From Paenibacillus sp. FSL M7-0420 (GTDB lineage Bacteria; Bacillota; Bacilli; Paenibacillales; Paenibacillaceae), in the NCBI RefSeq assembly GCF_038002345.1, contig NZ_JBBOCJ010000001.1, forward strand, positions 5,704,001-5,768,000: 64,000 bases of DNA, given 5' to 3'. The translations under genes and the position numbers were made by a program. Under the pieces are notes generated by a model. It made no database searches and was not told the DNA's origin. It saw nothing but the letters and a program-made list of their open reading frames with translations. Positions 1 through 49,359 of this stretch are shown here, piece after piece (position 1 is the first letter of the stretch; every line of letters starts with the position of its first letter).

Positions 1-61
1 CTGGTTTGTTTGTCGCATTGTGGAGACGGAGCCTTAAGGTTACCACCAGTTTCCCAAAATC

Positions 62-105
62 GCCTTATCTGCGGAACCAACGCTTGATCCGCTCCAGTGA
101 ACCCA
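62..105 (-). pseudogene. Scar of ydcF 3' end (copy 1)
   Basis: About 40 bases on the minus strand match the last codons of the intact ydcF at 7349-7999 (the part coding for A-L-E-Q-I-K-R-W-F-R) and the second scar near 1699-1783. The match extends a few bases past the ydcF stop only to the second scar (shared GATAAGGC), so the two scars are closer to each other than to the intact gene. It begins just a few bases after the stop codon of the regulator at 111-1469, so it marks a recombination junction. No coding function is expected. Confidence 0.6.
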
Positions 106-110
106 TTGAT

Positions 111-1469
111 TTAAAGGTATGCTCCAATTTGAACTTTATATTGTTCGTTCTCTTCTTCATTTGCTTGATTCCGATGCTGCCCAAACAGATCGACACATTT
201 GATTACATTGCTCTCGTTATTGATTCTAGCGGAGGTTTCCAAACTTTGCAGGATAAATCCAATTCCTTCTTTGCGCTTGTTATTTAAATAATAGGCTGCT
301 AATTCAGCGAGGAATTGGGTGTATTGGTTGGTTATGATTTGTTTGTTATGAAGAACCCCATATTCTGCAAGATCTGTCCGGTAAGGAATATAGGAAGCAA
401 AACGCTCCAGAATAGAATCAACCTTCCAATCGTAGCGGTTAGCCGACAAGACAATACTGTATAACGCTGTAAATATCTCATCTGGTCGGTGGGAGATATG
501 TTCAACATATTCAGAGAGAGCCTCATATTGTCCTGCCATCACCCGATAGAGCAGTCTGTTCGCGGTACCCCACTCCTGGAACTGAGCCACAGTCCGCTTC
601 ACTTCTTCATCGTCTTCCTGTATCCAGGTTCCATCCATATAGAGTGACACCCAATCTAATGCCGATGGGTAGTCTCCCATTTGCTCACATACATTTGAAC
701 GGATAAGCTGTGCGTACAGGATGTAGAAGTACAGGGGTTTCTCGGTTTTTTTCTCGTTACTCTCTCTACGATCCGAATGGCGCTGGAGATTATAACGAAT
801 AGTTGCTAATTGCAGCATCTTTTTCGCCAGCTCATCCACCTTATGCCACTTATGCAATGAAAAATATACATGAGCGAGATGCTTCAATCCCTCCAATTGA
901 TCCGCTTCATCCAGCCGGTCCAGGTAACCTTCGAAGATATGCGCCGCCTGCAAATTCCGCGTCTGGTCATCACCAATGGCGATTCGGAATAGACGGTATT
1001 GGCATACCGCAAGTCTCTCGGAATTCTGGTACTTCTCGCTGGCACTCACATTCTTATACAGCAATTCGGCAGCTTGCCACAGCCCCTCTTGAAACAGTCC
1101 TTCAGCCACTTCGAACAGCATGGGGGCATAGACCAGATTCTCCAGCAGATTCTGGACCACCTGTTCAACGCAATCCAGACGGCCCAGCTCAGCGGAGCGC
1201 ACAAGAAAAGGCCGCAGACGCCGCCAGGTGGGTGACGAGAAATAGAAACATTCATCCACATATAAACTGTAGAAATGATCCTCCGGCAGATCCATCGCCC
1301 GGGTGATTCGCTCCAGATGATTCATAGCAATGGGCTGGTGACCACTAAGTATCCGGCTAAGCGTTCCTGAATTAATTCCGGATTGTCCCGAGAATTGATT
1401 AATAGGCATTCCCTTCTGCGACAAATGCAACGCTAATAGATCGCGAATCATAGTTCTAGTAGGGACCAC
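111..1469 (-). CDS. XRE/TPR peptide-responsive regulator, AloR-like, orphan copy
   Basis: A cytoplasmic regulator of 452 residues: an XRE-type helix-turn-helix over about residues 6-60 (I-N-S-G-T-L-S-R-I-L-S-G-H is the recognition part), then a long all-helical region resembling TPR repeats. This is the architecture of RRNPP quorum-sensing receptors. It is closely similar along most of its length to the gene at 1915-3315. The start is a GTG at 1469: both paralogs keep an AGGTGG ribosome site 7 bases before this GTG, whereas an upstream ATG at 1529 lacks one. The last ~14 residues differ from the paralog; after E-Q-Y-K the frame runs into a different short tail and stops, and a ydcF scar follows. 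The pro-peptide gene that overlaps the 3' end of the paralog is therefore missing here. It may still bind DNA and sense a foreign or sister peptide, or be decaying. Family assignment is by architecture and peptide context, not by a search. Confidence 0.85.
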   Translation of the reverse strand: MVPTRTMIRDLLALHLSQKGMPINQFSGQSGINSGTLSRILSGHQPIAMNHLERITRAMDLPEDHFYSLYVDECFYFSSPTWRRLRPFLVRSAELGRLDCVEQVVQNLLENLVYAPMLFEVAEGLFQEGLWQAAELLYKNVSASEKYQNSERLAVCQYRLFRIAIGDDQTRNLQAAHIFEGYLDRLDEADQLEGLKHLAHVYFSLHKWHKVDELAKKMLQLATIRYNLQRHSDRRESNEKKTEKPLYFYILYAQLIRSNVCEQMGDYPSALDWVSLYMDGTWIQEDDEEVKRTVAQFQEWGTANRLLYRVMAGQYEALSEYVEHISHRPDEIFTALYSIVLSANRYDWKVDSILERFASYIPYRTDLAEYGVLHNKQIITNQYTQFLAELAAYYLNNKRKEGIGFILQSLETSARINNESNVIKCVDLFGQHRNQANEEENEQYKVQIGAYL

Positions 1470-1529
1470 GCAAACACCACCTAACTGGAATCCAATATAA
1501 TTTCTTTTATAGTTGCAATAATATGTCAC

Positions 1530-1538
1530 AATATTCCA
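1530..1538 (-). promoter_or_regulatory. Degenerate -10 region of the orphan regulator
   Basis: Aligned with the upstream region of the paralog, the place of the extended -10 box (TGG then TATAAT) reads TGG then AATATT on the minus strand. The flanking bases (GTGACATATTAT) are conserved. Expression of the orphan copy may therefore be weaker or differently controlled. Confidence 0.4.
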
Positions 1539-1610
1539 ATCGTCAATAATTTAGAATACTACAGATTAGTATAATCCGTGAACTACGGGCAAGCGGTTTG
1601 CAATGATGGC

Positions 1611-1647
1611 AAAAAAAAAGAGACCCTAGTAGTCTCATAAGGTCTCT
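1611..1647 (-). terminator. Rho-independent terminator after regulator/peptide unit
   Basis: On the minus strand a 7-bp stem AGAGACC/GGTCTCT is followed by nine or more T. It lies behind the peptide gene (1809-1952) and the ydcF scar and would end their transcript. A related hairpin at 3464-3489 occupies the same place in the upstream unit, showing that the duplication includes the terminator. Confidence 0.75.
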
Positions 1648-1698
1648 GTCGTCCCGGTAGAACCTGCTCTGTCATCGCAAAGGTGTCGTGCCTTATCA

Positions 1699-1783
1699 GC
1701 GGAACCAACCGCTTAATCTGTTCCAGCGAACCCTTCGCTTCCGGGCCATTGTAGCCGAAGGCATTGCCAATCATCTTAATATT
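1699..1783 (-). pseudogene. Scar of ydcF 3' end (copy 2)
   Basis: Read on the minus strand this stretch encodes I-K-M-I-G-N-A-F-G-Y-N-G-P-E-A-K-G and on through L-E-Q-I-K-R, matching the last ~25 residues of the YdcF protein at 7349-7999. The match stops abruptly on the 5' side and the reading frame continues past the ydcF stop position, so it is a fragment. It sits between the peptide gene and the terminator. The other scar is at 62-105. Confidence 0.8.
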
Positions 1784-1808
1784 TAATGTATTTGCTGCCC
1801 GGTAAGCA

Positions 1809-1952
1809 TCAACCGCCACCTACACCGTGATTCATAATTTGAATAAGACTTTGAGTACTGGTGTTTGCTACGGGGTCAGTTGTACCAAAAGGTATAATAA
1901 TTGCAATAGCCAGACTACAGGAAGCTAGAAGAATGATAAATTTTCTTTTCAT
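1809..1952 (-). CDS. Secreted quorum-sensing pro-peptide, AloP-like (47 aa)
   Basis: A small gene I read directly. It encodes 47 residues: a basic start (M-K-R-K), a hydrophobic stretch at about 5-22 that fits a Sec signal peptide, a polar linker, and the tail N-H-G-V-G-G-G at the C terminus. Its ATG lies inside the 3' end of the regulator gene 1915-3315 in another frame, overlapping it by 38 bases. A good ribosome site, GAGAGGTG, sits about 10 bases upstream. Overlap of an RRNPP receptor with a short exported pro-peptide whose last 5-7 residues become the signal is the standard layout of Rap-Phr, NprR-NprX and Paenibacillus AloR-AloP pairs. By inference the peptide is exported, trimmed, re-imported by an oligopeptide permease and bound by the TPR region of the neighbouring receptor. 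The mature sequence is a guess, probably around N-H-G-V-G-G. Confidence 0.8.
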   Translation of the reverse strand: MKRKFIILLASCSLAIAIIIPFGTTDPVANTSTQSLIQIMNHGVGGG

Positions 1953-3315
1953 GGGAGTCCTGCACCTCTCTAATTAGAAGTTTGTATTGCTCTTTCTCTT
2001 CTTCATCTGCCAGATACCGATGCTGCTCGAACAGATCAACACATTTGATGATATTGCTCTCATTATTAATTCTAGCAGACGATTCCAAACTTTGCAGGAT
2101 GAATCCAATACCTTCTTTACGCTTATTATGTAAATAATAGGTGGCCATTTCAGCAAGGAATTGAGTGTGTTGGTCCAACATAACCTGCCGGTTATAATCG
2201 CCAAATTCTGTAGAATACGTCCGGTAAGGAATATAGGCAGCAAATCGCTCCAGAATAGAATCAACATTCCAGTCATAACGGTTAGCCGACAAGATAATAT
2301 TGTATATCCCTATGAATATCTCATCTGGTCGGTGAGAAATATATTCGACATATGCTGAGAGTACTTCGGACTGTCCTCCCAGCACCTGATAGAGCAGTCT
2401 GTTTGCGGTACCCCACTCCTGGAACTGAGCCATAGTCCGCTTCACCTCTTCATTGTCCTCCTGTATCCAGCTCCCATCCATATAGAGGGACACCCAATCT
2501 AATGCCGAATTGAAATCTCCCAATTCCTTACACACAGCTGAACGGATAAGCTGCGCGTACAGGATATAGAAGTACAGAGGTTTCTCGGTTTTTTTCTCGT
2601 TACTCTCTCTGCGGTTCGGCTGCCTCTGAAGATTATAACGAAGAGTCGCTAATTGCTGCATTTGCTGCATCAATTCATCCACCTTATGCCACTTATGCAG
2701 CGAAACATATACATGAGCGAGATGCTTCAATCCATCCAATTGATCCGCCTCATCCAGCCGGTCCAGGTAACATTCGAAGAGGTGCGCAGCCTGTAAATTC
2801 CGCGTCTGGTCATCACCAATGGCGATACGGAACAGACGGTATTGGCATATCGCCAGTCTCTCGGAATTCTGATACTTCTCACTGACACTCACATTCTTAT
2901 ACAGTAACTCGGCAGCTTGCCACAGCCCCTCTTGAAACAGTCCTTCAGCCACTTCGAACAGCATGGGGGCATAGACCAGATTCTCCAGCAGATTCTGAAC
3001 CACCTGTTCAACGCAATCCAGACGGCCCAGTTCAGCCGATCGCACAAGAAAAGGCCGCAGACGCCGCCAGGTGGGTGACGAGAAATAGAAACATTCATCC
3101 ACGTATAAGCTATAGAAATGATCCTCCGGCAGATCCATTGCCTTGGTAATTCGCTCCAGATGGTTCATCGCAATGGGCTGGTGACCACTAAGTATCCGGC
3201 TGAGCGTTCCTGAATTAATTCCGGATTGTATGGAGAATTGATGAATAGACATTCCCTTCTGCGACAAATACAACGCTAATAGATCGCGAATCATCGTTCT
3301 AGTAGTAGAGACCAC
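1915..3315 (-). CDS. XRE/TPR quorum-sensing receptor, AloR-like, with cognate peptide
   Basis: A cytoplasmic regulator of 466 residues: helix-turn-helix at about residues 8-66, then helical TPR-like repeats to the end. Start GTG at 3315 with AGGTGG 7 bases upstream; the TGG-TATAAT extended -10 at 3381-3389 lies about 65 bases upstream. The 3' end overlaps the pro-peptide gene 1809-1952, which identifies the likely ligand. By analogy with RRNPP receptors (PlcR, NprR, AimR, AloR), peptide binding in the TPR groove would change DNA binding and switch target genes, often including the local operon. The paralog at 111-1469 is close in sequence but lacks the peptide gene and the last ~14 residues. 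Direct targets cannot be seen from the sequence. Confidence 0.88.
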   Translation of the reverse strand: MVSTTRTMIRDLLALYLSQKGMSIHQFSIQSGINSGTLSRILSGHQPIAMNHLERITKAMDLPEDHFYSLYVDECFYFSSPTWRRLRPFLVRSAELGRLDCVEQVVQNLLENLVYAPMLFEVAEGLFQEGLWQAAELLYKNVSVSEKYQNSERLAICQYRLFRIAIGDDQTRNLQAAHLFECYLDRLDEADQLDGLKHLAHVYVSLHKWHKVDELMQQMQQLATLRYNLQRQPNRRESNEKKTEKPLYFYILYAQLIRSAVCKELGDFNSALDWVSLYMDGSWIQEDNEEVKRTMAQFQEWGTANRLLYQVLGGQSEVLSAYVEYISHRPDEIFIGIYNIILSANRYDWNVDSILERFAAYIPYRTYSTEFGDYNRQVMLDQHTQFLAEMATYYLHNKRKEGIGFILQSLESSARINNESNIIKCVDLFEQHRYLADEEEKEQYKLLIREVQDSHEKKIYHSSSFL

Positions 3316-3380
3316 GCAAACACCACCTAACTGGAATCCAAAAATTATTTGTTTATTGTATAGATGTAATAATATGTCAC

Positions 3381-3389
3381 ATTATACCA
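3381..3389 (-). promoter_or_regulatory. Extended -10 promoter of the receptor/peptide unit
   Basis: Minus strand TGG followed by a consensus TATAAT, a classic extended -10 (TGnTATAAT). No good -35 hexamer is seen 16-18 bases upstream, which is usual for extended -10 promoters. The transcript would have a leader of roughly 55-60 bases before the GTG. Confidence 0.5.
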
Positions 3390-3463
3390 ATGGTCAATAA
3401 CATAGAGTACTACAGATTAGTCTAATCCGTGAACTACAGGCAACCCGTTTGCCATATGAGGGC

Positions 3464-3489
3464 AAAAAAATAGAGACTCTAGTAGTCTC
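3464..3489 (-). terminator. Terminator of the WYL regulator gene
   Basis: Minus strand GAGACT/AGTCTC hairpin with a 5-base loop followed by T-A-T7. It overlaps the stop codon of the gene at 3488-4414. Related in sequence to the hairpin at 1611-1647. Confidence 0.6.
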
Positions 3490-4414
3490 ATAAGGCAGGG
3501 CCACCCTTTCGATTCAAATTTCCCATCATCACCTCTATCTTGCTCATAACAGCATCCCGTAGACTTTGAGGCTCCATCGCTTCAATAATCGGGCCATAAG
3601 AGAGAAAATAATTTGAAAGCCAATCTCCTTCGGGCATGGATGCGATAACAGTAAAAGATCCATCTTCATGTTTTGTTATTTCTTTTTCGCTAAAGTCATC
3701 GTATATTCTATACGCTCCCGCCGGAGAGATTTTTAACCGAATATCAATAAATTTCTGTAAATGATTATCTGTCGTTTCAGCCGCAGATTCCACTGATGTC
3801 TCTTGCTCAAAAACCTCTTCAGTGATTTCAATATTAGCCATACGGGATATTTTGAATGTTCTGTATGTCCTTTTATCATAGCAATACGCTTTCAAATACC
3901 ATGCCTTATCCTTGAAAATCAACTTATGCGGCTCAACCCTGCGCAAGCTTTTCACACCTGAGTTATTGAAATAGTCGAATATAATAATATGTTTGCTTAT
4001 AATTGCCACTTTTATTGCATTGAAATTTTCTTTGTTTCGTTCATTACTTCCCCAGGGTGAGAAGTCCAATTCAATCCAATTCACATCACTCTTTTTGAAA
4101 AGGCTGCTTAATCGTGAAAGAATAGTATTAATTTCCGGATATCGCGCTGCTGATAGATTCTGTAAGGCGAGCAGTATTTCATCCTGTTCTTTTTCAGAAA
4201 GTAACGACTTATTTAGAATAAAATTGTCGAGAATGACGATTCCGCCGCCTCTGCCTTGATTCGTATAGACTGGTATGCCAGCGCTGCTTAATGTCTCAAT
4301 ATCGCGATATATGGTTCTAACCGATACTTCAAAACGGTCGGCAAGTTCTTTCCCTGTAGTTTCTTTTTTCTCAAGTAAGTAATAAACAATGTCGAAAAGT
4401 CTGCTGATCTGCAT
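3488..4414 (-). CDS. YafY-type HTH/WYL transcriptional regulator
   Basis: 308 residues. A DeoR-like winged helix lies at about 1-60 (V-S-V-R-T-I-Y-R-D-I-E is the recognition helix) and a WYL domain at about 138-220, with the literal Trp-Tyr-Leu at 172-174. A WYL C-terminal extension follows. WYL domains are thought to bind a small ligand or nucleic acid and to control the attached helix-turn-helix. The gene is divergent from the twin-SnoaL gene at 4589, with about 170 bases between them, so it probably regulates that neighbour and itself. The base composition is more AT-rich than the core genome. Confidence 0.85.
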   Translation of the reverse strand: MQISRLFDIVYYLLEKKETTGKELADRFEVSVRTIYRDIETLSSAGIPVYTNQGRGGGIVILDNFILNKSLLSEKEQDEILLALQNLSAARYPEINTILSRLSSLFKKSDVNWIELDFSPWGSNERNKENFNAIKVAIISKHIIIFDYFNNSGVKSLRRVEPHKLIFKDKAWYLKAYCYDKRTYRTFKISRMANIEITEEVFEQETSVESAAETTDNHLQKFIDIRLKISPAGAYRIYDDFSEKEITKHEDGSFTVIASMPEGDWLSNYFLSYGPIIEAMEPQSLRDAVMSKIEVMMGNLNRKGGPAL

Positions 4415-5284: not shown

Positions 5285-5351
5285 AGATGCTGGTGGAGAA
5301 TTTAATTAAGGTACTAGAGTAAAGGGCTGGTATGACCCAGCCCCTCCTCAT

Positions 5352-5385
5352 CAAACCGTACGTGAGGTTTTCCCTCATACGGCTT
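5352..5385 (-). ncRNA. Group II intron domain V (catalytic hairpin)
   Basis: Minus strand hairpin beginning A-G-C-C-G-T-A and closing T-A-C-G-G-T-T, with GAGG/CCTC in the upper stem and a GAAA-type tetraloop region. This is the 34-nt domain V with the AGC catalytic triad that binds the two catalytic metal ions. Confidence 0.75.
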
Positions 5386-5415
5386 TCCGATGTTTGTCAT
5401 TCATGGGCATGCAGA

Positions 5416-6708
5416 TTACAATAGCGTTTTTAGTCCATATTGGATGGCCAAATATCGAACTTCTGACCGGGAACTCATCCATCTTCCTCGTTTTCTCTTC
5501 TTTGCATACCACCGGGTAAATCGCTGCTGAATATACCAATCCAGCTTTGCTAACCTCTTTTGACTATACTTCGTGTAATAATAATTTCTCCATCCCTGTA
5601 TCTTGGGATTGAGCCATTCCACATGTTCCTCAAACGATTTCCAGCGCATGCCAGGCGGTGCTAATCGGTCTTTGACCACGCCCCGGATACGTTCCTCTGC
5701 CTTCTTCGTTAGCCACTGCTGTGTGGTATAGTACACCTTCCCTTGAGAGGTTTCTGCTTTCGTTTTTCGGTGGTGCATTCCTAAGAAGTCGAAGCCTTCG
5801 TCTCCTGTCCACAGACCTACAATGCGAGTTTTGGTCGGATGTAGCGTGAGTTCCAGACGTTCCATAATGTTGCGGATGAGTTCATACGCATGTTCCGCAT
5901 CCTTTTTGGTTTTACAGACCACAACGAAGTCGTCTGCATACCTCGTCAGTTCTCCCAGCCCACTTCCGTGTTTCTCCCATAACCAATCAAAGTAGTTCAA
6001 ATAGATATTCGCCAGCAGTGGCGAAATCACGCCACCTTGGGGTGTCCCTAAATCGGAGCGCCGTACGTTTCCTTCTTCCATCACTCCCGCATGAAGCCAC
6101 TTCCGGATGAGCTTCAGAATCCGTCTGTCATTGATACGCATCTGTACCAGTTTCATAAGCTTCTCTTGATTGATATTGTCGAAGTAACCTTGGATATCGA
6201 CATCGACTACCCAATTTCCTTTGCGGTTGCAGGCCTTCCGGATTCGCTCCAGCGCTCCTTTCGCGCTTCGTTTCGGACGAAATCCGAAGGAGACTTCTTT
6301 AAAATCCGCTTCAAAGATGGGTTCAATTACCAGTTTCGTTGCCATCTGTAGGACTCGGTCCCGTACCGTAGGGATGCCTAGCGGTCTTGGCTTCCCGTCT
6401 TTCTTTGGGATATAGTGCCGACGTACGGGCTGCGGATGGTAGCTGCCTTCTTTCAGTTCTCGCTCGCATTCCTTGAGGAATCTTGTTTCTCCTTGTTCTT
6501 CAATATCTGCGAGCGTCACGGCATCCACTCCCGCAGCTCCCTTATTCGCTTTCACCCGTTTCCAGGCTTCGCCTAGCACATCCCACCGGTAGACTTTGTC
6601 ATACAAGGCGTGGAATTTACGCTTGTTGTTCTCCTTGGCCGCATGACCTAGCTTTTCTTGGAGTTCTTGAACTTTTTCCTTGGGTGTCGTTAGCCGCTTG
6701 GCATTCAC
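5416..6708 (-). CDS. ltrA: Group II intron reverse transcriptase/maturase
   Basis: 430 residues, ordered as RT0/RT1-7 (about 35-300), then the maturase X/thumb domain (GIIM) to the end. The catalytic Y-A-D-D is at 257-260 and G-T-P-Q-G-G at 221-226. There is no C-terminal HNH endonuclease, which fits class C introns that retrohome into single-stranded sites beside terminators. Start is a GTG at 6708, 9 bases behind AGGAGG. The protein would bind its own intron RNA, help it splice, and copy it into DNA by target-primed reverse transcription. The reading frame and motifs are intact, so it may be active. Confidence 0.95.
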
Positions 6709-7254
6709 TCACTCGTACCTCCTCCAAAAGCGTAAACAAAGCAGGGCTCCTTCCCTCCCTAAGGTTATGTTGTCCTTAGGTTCTTCGGTACTATGAGCCC
6801 CTCGGACTCCCTTCCCACAGACGGTTCACTTCGTCTTCTGGACTTATAGAGCGTCTCTTTACGGGTTCCTTAAAAAAAAATTTTTTTCTTTTTTTCTCCC
6901 GTGTGGGGGAGGGTCTCCCCAGTTCACTGCATTATCTTTCAATCCATGCCGTTCCCTATACGCCGGAGGATTCTTCACTGCTGTTCCAAGTTCTGTACAG
7001 TTTCCTTGGCCTTCGTCTATTGATTCGAGACTCGGCATCCTCTCATCCCCTTCGCAGGGCCTTTTTGACGACGCGGCAAGATTCACTTCATGTTGCGGCC
7101 TGGATTGTTGCTCGCCCAGTCTCTGACCGGTACTTTTGTCGATGCGCTTTTACGCACAGATTTCGCCATGCGCAAGCATCCTAGCTACAAAGGTGGCTTG
7201 GTCCCTCCTTTGGTTGGACTTTCACCAACTAGATAATGCGTGCCTCTGGGCACG

Positions 7255-7348: not shown

Positions 7349-7999
7349 TCACCCACTGCGAAACCAGCGCTTGATCTGCTCCAGCGCCCCCTTCGCTTCC
7401 GGGCCATTATAGCCGAAGGCATTGCCAATCATCTTAATATATTCGTTAAAAGTCGTCTCCCGGCTATACCGGTCACTCCACCACGCCTTCGCGTTATAGC
7501 CCGAATCCGCCCCGATATAAGTCAGCGCAATCCCCGACTTCCTATACACATGATCGAAGATAAACTTCACCCGCCGCATATGAAAATCCGACGACACCAC
7601 AATCGCCGACTTGAATCCCTCCTGCTGCATGATCGGAAGCGTGAGCTGCGCGTTTTGGTAGGTGCTCTCGGCAGCGTCCTCCGTCAGAATAGCGGATTCC
7701 GGGATGCCCAAGGAGAGGGCGGTTTCGCGCATGTCGCCGGCGGGGCCGGTGATCTCTTTAGCGTTAGACAGCAGGATCTGCGGCGCGTTGCCTTCTTGAA
7801 ACAGCTGAACCCCTTGCTCCACCCGCCCTCCCCCGCCGCTGAGGATGATGATAACGTCTGCTTGCTTGGGAGCCTCAGTTACGGGAAGGAAGCGCCCGGC
7901 GCACAGGAACAGCAAGACGATTAACAGAAGGGGCAAGTACAGAAAAAGGATTCTTTTTCTGCGCTTGCCCATCTTGGTCCTAGTTAGGTTACGGCTCAT
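7349..7999 (-). CDS. ydcF: YdcF-family (DUF218) membrane-anchored protein
   Basis: 216 residues: one transmembrane helix at about 16-35, then a DUF218 Rossmann-like domain outside the membrane with the V-I-I-I-L-S-G-G-G motif near 50 and S-S-D-F-H-M-R-R near 140. The family includes SanA/YdcF proteins linked to envelope integrity; the biochemical role is unsettled. It begins 3 bases after the stop of rfbB, so it is the last gene of the rfb operon. Fragments of its 3' end occur at 62-105 and 1699-1783, so this 3' end has been a repeated recombination point. Confidence 0.85.
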   Translation of the reverse strand: MSRNLTRTKMGKRRKRILFLYLPLLLIVLLFLCAGRFLPVTEAPKQADVIIILSGGGGRVEQGVQLFQEGNAPQILLSNAKEITGPAGDMRETALSLGIPESAILTEDAAESTYQNAQLTLPIMQQEGFKSAIVVSSDFHMRRVKFIFDHVYRKSGIALTYIGADSGYNAKAWWSDRYSRETTFNEYIKMIGNAFGYNGPEAKGALEQIKRWFRSG

Positions 8000-49285: not shown

Positions 49286-49359
49286 GTCCCGGTAGCTCAG
49301 TTGGATAGAGCATGCGCCTTCTAAGCGCACGGTCGGGGGTTCGAATCCCTTCCGGGACG
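49286..49359 (+). tRNA. tRNA-Arg (TCT)
   Basis: Complete cloverleaf of 74 nt without encoded CCA: acceptor GTCCCGG/CCGGGAC, D-stem GCTC/GAGC, anticodon stem TGCGC/GCGCA with anticodon TCT (reads AGA), T-stem GGGGG/CCCTT region with TTCGAAT loop. A terminator hairpin follows at once. Confidence 0.97.

Follow-up and report, generated by a model that had tools for sequence, protein, structure and literature searches.

Covariation of a variable signal residue with receptor residue 204 in an AloR-AloP module of Paenibacillus sp. FSL M7-0420

A stretch of 64,000 nucleotides from Paenibacillus sp. FSL M7-0420 (contig NZ_JBBOCJ010000001.1, positions 5,704,001 to 5,768,000; hereafter the window, meaning this stretch at its full length) carries near its beginning a receptor gene and a short pro-peptide gene that overlap on the minus strand (Table 1). 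Judged from its sequence, this pair is an AloR-AloP module, a type already known in Paenibacillus. Across the family, the variable residue X of the HGXG core in the pro-peptide tail covaries with residue 204 of the receptor, aromatic X going with Gly204, and the window pair is quite probably a quorum-sensing module in which X is read by receptor residue 204. No receptor-peptide specificity code for AloR was found in the published literature searched, and the association is reported here as new.

The reading frames described in the initial annotation, a 466-residue helix-turn-helix (HTH) regulator and a 47-residue gene overlapping its 3' part by 38 nucleotides, were both recovered, and the ribosome site assigned to the small gene agrees with a AGAGAGGTG stretch upstream of its ATG. 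The HTH of AloR matches PF13443 at 22.3 bits, against a Pfam cut-off of 22. The tetratricopeptide repeat (TPR) character attributed to the regulator is supported by a predicted structure that is all-helical, an HTH followed by helix pairs (predicted local distance difference test score, pLDDT, 89.1), with the best TPR register at residues 116 and 193, and by TPR_2 matches at E up to 0.1 in 6 of 21 aligned AloRs, although the window protein is not among these six and Pfam gives no TPR match for it. Significant matches to AloR in Pfam, PHROGs and NCBIfam were confined to the HTH part, and a PDB sequence search at E up to 0.001 returned HTH proteins only, with no significant match to solved RRNPP structures; in a fold comparison NprR, Rap, AimR and PlcR were among the matches, ranked below LGN. 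The translation of aloP is MKRKFIILLASCSLAIAIIIPFGTTDPVANTSTQSLIQIMNHGVGGG, which lies within the 30-50 residues of the short-ORF (open reading frame) criterion, overlaps the receptor gene and has an N-terminal hydrophobic helix, as judged by hydropathy only. Conservation of the small gene in related strains, on which the initial annotation had staked the pair in advance, was observed in 14 of the 23 receptors at least 80% identical to the window AloR, all 14 with an offset of -37 and an HGXG core, the other nine being without a pro-peptide. Since those 14 receptors all keep the pro-peptide in the same overlap, the pair is more than a chance arrangement.

The AloR-AloP systems were described in P. 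polymyxa, where the mature AloP13 peptide is SHGRGG and a spo0E-like gene is driven by AloR13 until the peptide switches it off (PMC7425212). An AloR13-type locus, consisting of the receptor, an SHGRGG tail and a SpoOE-like protein directly downstream, is present in P. brasilensis and in Paenibacillus sp. BJ-4 (Pfam E 7e-13 and 8e-14 for the SpoOE-like proteins), and because of this tail and downstream gene these loci are taken as orthologous to that of AloR13. The P. brasilensis receptor is 38% identical to the window AloR over 457 aligned positions, and with this orthologue as reference the AloR-homology threshold of the RRNPP_detector paper (at least 30% identity over at least 80%) is reached. 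This similarity also passes the second check named in the initial annotation, which would have dropped the pair had its receptor been unlike the RRNPP families. One AloR on a plasmid of ATCC 842, the strain of AloR13, is 40% identical to the window receptor over 97%. The window's own genome holds 13 matches to its AloR, 11 of them full-length AloRs and two half-length relatives, and, with half-length relatives counted, at least one match occurs in 96 of 100 genomes searched in its own genus and in all 75 searched in the genus of P. brasilensis. The match to the AloR13 orthologue and the wide distribution of the family in the genus therefore identify the window pair as a new member of a known family, and the RRNPP-like layout, the AloR-AloP affiliation and the HGxGG core that had been named at the outset are in keeping with both the orthologue and the AloP13 peptide. 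Among 334 matches, 259 distinct receptors were retained after dropping 69 duplicates, five with in-frame stops and one with too little downstream sequence, and an HGXG tail lies beside 174 of them.

The window pair shares with AloR13-AloP13 the HTH and TPR receptor, the downstream pro-peptide and the xHGXGG tail (PMC7425212), but X is R and residue 204 is S in the latter, whereas both are V in the window, and the window aloP is followed by an orphan aloR instead of a Spo0E-like gene. A Spo0E-like gene, which is optional in the family, was not seen downstream of the window aloP, where the small ORFs in between were not each scanned. A scan for the Spo0E motif SQ[EDK]LD and close variants of it failed to detect the genuine Spo0E-like gene next to AloR13, which reads SMELD, so that absences by this motif mean little, and a family-wide search for the DNA pattern of HGRGG plus stop found none near an aloR in 20 same-genus places (among the matches listed) or at other-genus loci. 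Three AloR-AloP loci with the tail GHGWGN (L118, L125 and L129) carry the SQ[EDK]LD motif some 430 nucleotides downstream.

The association between X and the receptor emerged from a scan in which every receptor column was tested against aromatic X on phylogenetically independent pairs, using a quick tree built without residues 190-215; kinship was handled by the independent pairs and by simulation. In a first set of 112 receptor-peptide pairs (1,528 tests), G204 scored 8.5 of 10 independent pairs for and none against, the next best test reaching 4.7 (V204), and when 24 traits simulated on this tree were put through these tests, their highest scores were 3.1-4.9. In an enlarged set of 156 pairs, which pools the first pairs with the further ones described below (1,916 tests), G204 reached 9.7 of 11 for and none against (median sign-test p 0.002, uncorrected), followed by a next best of 3.7. 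All 30 G204 receptors in this set have an aromatic X, and the 37 aromatic X residues are found with G (30), A (6) or R (1) at position 204, while aliphatic X runs against G204 (6/13) and tends to accompany A204 or V204 (about 4 for either). Residue 200 covaries more weakly with X, G200 being present in all six pairs with X = Y. Two peptide callers underlie these figures. The first, which preferred an HGXG tail where present, always began at the earliest start, so that nested starts escaped it (e.g., GHGWGT beside L008 and NHGEG beside L010). This caller or its forerunners were used for, among other results, the 112-pair scan, the simulations, a 28-pair hold-out, the column-difference and volume statistics and the counts on 106 pro-peptides given below; the corrected caller produced the 259-receptor, 156-pair and 30-pair hold-out results.

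The G204 rule was fixed before further pairs, from another genus, were looked at. With the first caller (28 pairs) all seven G204 receptors had an aromatic X and all 21 non-aromatic pairs were without G204; with the corrected caller (30 pairs) the corresponding counts were 9/9 and 21/21. These 30 pairs derive from 66 distinct receptors, of which 38 remained after a filter of less than 95% identity to the training set and 30 had an HGXG peptide; training and hold-out together had 55 duplicates, seven open ends and five in-frame stops removed. The hold-out is only partly independent, since the clades of some of its G204 receptors were already in the training set: five of the nine are F-type and 79-91% identical to training receptors, and four are W-type, at 57-79%. 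Receptors without an HGXG peptide (14 of 85 with G204) are uninformative on the rule. Other statistics were less telling. When columns were ranked by how much more they differ in X-discordant than in X-concordant pairs, as a ratio, residue 204 fell outside the top 30, and a volume correlation over 46 X-discordant pairs and 307 columns gave it the smallest p (0 of 20,000 sign flips), with no family-wise significance by maximum correlation (0.39). A size rule pairing small X with large residue 204 was unsupported on independent pairs and was rejected.

The position of residue 204 lends itself to a contact. In the TPR spanning residues 193-226 it occupies position 12, and it lies within helix 189-205 of the predicted AloR model; the concave variable positions of TPRs are 2, 5, 9, 12, 13, 33 and 34, position 12 being among those that contact the ligand in two crystal structures (PMC1261162). 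The covariation is read here as a steric fit of aromatic X to Gly204 that would keep each receptor on its own signal. Shared descent, or the shuffling of modules between lineages, might instead have produced the association within a genuine AloR-AloP pair. Both states are indeed common to related receptors, duplication at the locus has been repeated and orphans are mixed with peptide-bearing receptors in the tree, but the agreement of most independent pairs, with none against, on a tree deprived of residues 190-215, the distance to other columns, a first-set signal beyond all simulated traits, the ligand-contact position and the persistence of the rule on further sequences together make this explanation unlikely. 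By analogy with the family, the N-terminal hydrophobic signal would direct the export of AloP, extracellular cleavage would leave a peptide resembling NHGVGG, and this peptide, once taken up again, would bind AloR in its concave TPR groove, whereupon the receptor would change its activity as a transcription regulator. The two genes would thereby form a complete communication module, as initially proposed, and the locus as a whole might comprise one private receptor and, on thinner evidence, one listening to another channel.

The tail of the pro-peptide is consistent with such a signal. The first set contains 106 distinct HGXG pro-peptides; a single residue follows HGXG in 40 of them and two residues in 54, the shortest form being a six-residue xHGXGx in the same register as SHGRGG, to which the window adds one G after NHGVGG. 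Pro-peptides of distant HTH-less relatives carry three tandem NHGANY copies (L435 and L436), and that of a half-length HTH-less relative contains NHGANS and NHGANY (L240). Since 40 of 106 tails end one residue past the core and the NHGANY repeats are six residues long, a mature signal close to NHGVGG, as the initial annotation had suggested, is favoured. In the window clade, the codons CAC GGT preceding X are invariant in 15 distinct aloP genes, whereas X varies among V, Y, F, I and L; among the 14 pro-peptides of 47 residues, five residues occur at X and one each at the flanking H and G, a further position in the linker also having five. X, the residue at which the tail varies most, is fixed in other clades (e.g., HGTG[DN]G), and the tree of 156 pairs requires at least 59 changes of X. 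The window AloP and other AloPs, 51 of the 106 in all, have a LASC or lipobox-like motif in their first 30 residues, which could mean processing by signal peptidase II. It could also mean a lipid-anchored product, the small gene then encoding a membrane peptide or leader rather than a signal and the receptor being an ordinary XRE regulator, but a tail that holds a near-invariant HG-G core and covaries with the receptor, a similar core in tandem copies in distant relatives, and relatives that are secreted, one of them active in P. polymyxa (PMC7425212), render this very improbable. A phage-type arbitrium (AimR-AimP) system, which likewise combines an HTH and TPR receptor with a downstream peptide gene and could be invoked for the relatives at 19 IMG/VR contig loci and in one Brevibacillus phage (29% identity), is very improbable, since AimP peptides differ, the window locus is chromosomal with a DUF218-aloR-M24 synteny kept in several relatives, its neighbours, as far as the ORFs were annotated, are those given below, and 13 of the 19 IMG/VR loci fall in a receptor class with different tails. 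This separate AloR class (L174-L188, from IMG/VR contigs, and L221-L234, from P. brasilensis; L171-L173 lie outside it) has R204 in all listed members and tails such as DQHGGA, DQVGGA or VTIGGA instead of HGXG.

A second, weaker link joins receptor residue 263 to the residue preceding HG; the window has N there, most close relatives G. E263 occurs with G preceding HG in 58 of 69 cases, K263 accompanies N in the window pair as well as in those of two relatives, and independent pairs are 6.2 of 11 for and none against; this is the best result among four further traits scanned, without hold-out, and the K263/N form is a single event on the tree. Residues 204 and 263 both bear on the orphan receptor of the window. 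While the initial account of the pair itself stood, it had missed this second receptor and the 3'-end remnants of a DUF218 gene. The second aloR ends ahead of the point at which aloP begins in its partner. Of eight tandem loci with both members seen, seven have an orphan whose residues 200/204 are not those of its partner: A/V in the partner versus A/F in the orphan in the window, and elsewhere G/G versus A/V, A/V versus G/A, A/V versus G/G (three loci) and I/Y versus G/G, the eighth being G/G in both. The count covers loci of the window type, the other tandem type (L006/L007) being left out; one of the seven differing orphans (L249) keeps a broken-looking aloP, and one of the seven partners (L251) shares no more than 73% identity with the window receptor. 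Peptide-less receptors have been proposed as eavesdroppers for Rap and AimR (PMC9765709). Because the two F204 pairs have X = T and S and none of 38 Y204 pairs has an aromatic X, the window orphan (F204, E263) may, on thin evidence, hear a GHG-small-G peptide of a paralogue; GHGTGGG, GHGTGDG and GHGPGGG are encoded in the same genome beside L003, L005 and L006.

These patterns might be generalized to a one-letter code in which X would be read by residue 204 together with 200, and the letter preceding HG by residue 263, so that peptide-less receptors become assignable and duplicates are kept for a different dialect (a paralogue's GHGTG-type in the window, a sister species' Y-type elsewhere), a proposal put forward tentatively and with somewhat more doubt than confidence. 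Many AloR systems occur in Paenibacillus species; several lack a peptide gene, and the known signals are few. Should the variable signal letters prove predictable from one or two receptor residues, sequence could be used to match orphan receptors to candidate peptides, and, were the code true, a few synthetic hexapeptides could probe the whole network, including eavesdropping between species.

The promoter region of aloR offers a clue to regulation. The element TATTGACCATTGGNATANTNTNACATATTATTACA, or its 25-nucleotide core, occurs within three mismatches at five places in 7.67 Mb, each just upstream of an aloR; it precedes five of the 11 full-length aloR genes, the other six being without it at up to three mismatches, and a reversed-pattern control gave none. 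The pattern TATTGACC is more widespread, with TTGAC at the expected distance in 42 of 72 upstream regions of the 44-60% class. Sigma70-like promoter and hairpin sites are about as frequent in shuffled sequence, and the promoter and terminator calls consequently rest on position and conservation. The sharing of the element suggests that AloRs regulate aloR genes, through self- and cross-regulation; no target genes beyond these were found.

Parallels with other systems extend to the arrangement of genes. Rap-Phr, NprR-NprX and PlcR-PapR resemble the window pair in combining a TPR receptor with a short peptide, which is secreted in the known systems. For Rap-Phr, orphan receptors are on record, as are peptides that have duplicated and diverged (PMC5199041), whereas in the window the receptor has been duplicated without the peptide. 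A set of half-length relatives (mostly 280-310 residues: L013, at G000:C1:655125-655964, L240, L242, L243 and L414-L443) has the TPR part of AloR and an HG-core pro-peptide gene, mostly overlapping the receptor gene as in the window, but differs from it in having no HTH by Pfam (5 of 5 tested) and, in some, multi-copy signals. Their tails include NHGxGH, NHGVDY and NHGANY, an HG tail being present in 23 of 31 matches. These relatives have the appearance of a Rap-type counterpart of AloR and may or may not correspond to 'cluster 8' of Paenibacillaceae in RRNPP_detector.

The recognized neighbours of the locus, where not every ORF was annotated, are an epimerase-family gene (Pfam Epimerase), which we take to be rmlB, and DUF218, SnoaL-like, WYL-regulator, group II intron and M24 peptidase genes. 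Downstream of aloP the order is DUF218 remnant, orphan aloR and M24 peptidase gene. In the simplest arrangement (L093/L334), epimerase, DUF218, aloR, aloP and M24 peptidase genes follow one another; in other relatives this set is extended by genes for a SnoaL-like protein and a WYL regulator, by an orphan aloR to one side or the other, or by remnants, and L097 and L331 have none of the usual neighbours within the fetched stretch. The group II intron is an addition in the window; no reverse transcriptase match was found in L094, L096 and L333, where the gene order is DUF218-SnoaL-WYL-aloR. At L329 (1810-2302), pieces of a third aloR lie between DUF218 and the pair, a further sign of repeated duplication and loss.

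Table 1. Features of the window discussed in the text, with positions counted from its first letter.
Feature	Position	Strand	Remarks
aloR	1915..3315	-	HTH and TPR-type receptor, 466 residues, GTG start; from ORF, Pfam, homology and predicted structure
aloP	1809..1952	-	47-residue pro-peptide, ATG start; basic N terminus, hydrophobic stretch, tail MNHGVGGG
N-H-G-V-G-G-G codons	1812..1832	-	Variable residue X (V44) at 1821-1823
V204 codon of aloR	2704..2706	-	TPR position 12; covaries with X
A200 codon of aloR	2716..2718	-	TPR position 8; weaker covariation with X
K263 codon of aloR	2527..2529	-	Weaker covariation with residue preceding HG
Conserved aloR promoter element	3365..3399	-	TTGACC-17-TATTAT with conserved spacer; hexamers 3397-3369
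Promoter-element copy preceding orphan aloR	1514..1548	-	
Terminator-like hairpin and T run downstream of aloP	1620..1636	-	Three such sites in 1-3600, 2.3 expected by chance
Second (orphan) aloR	111..1469	-	452 residues, 85% identical, without aloP; A200, F204, E263
DUF218 gene 3'-end remnant, directly past aloP	1709..1810	-	Matches residues 176-211 of the DUF218 protein (encoded at 7349-7999) with 75% identity
Shorter DUF218 3'-end remnant, past second receptor	about 65-110		Read by eye
Group II intron, between DUF218 and SnoaL-like genes	5313-7231		Rfam RF02003, RF00029; RVT_1, GIIM; reverse transcriptase ORF 5416-6708, minus strand
tRNA gene	49286-49359	+	Rfam RF00005
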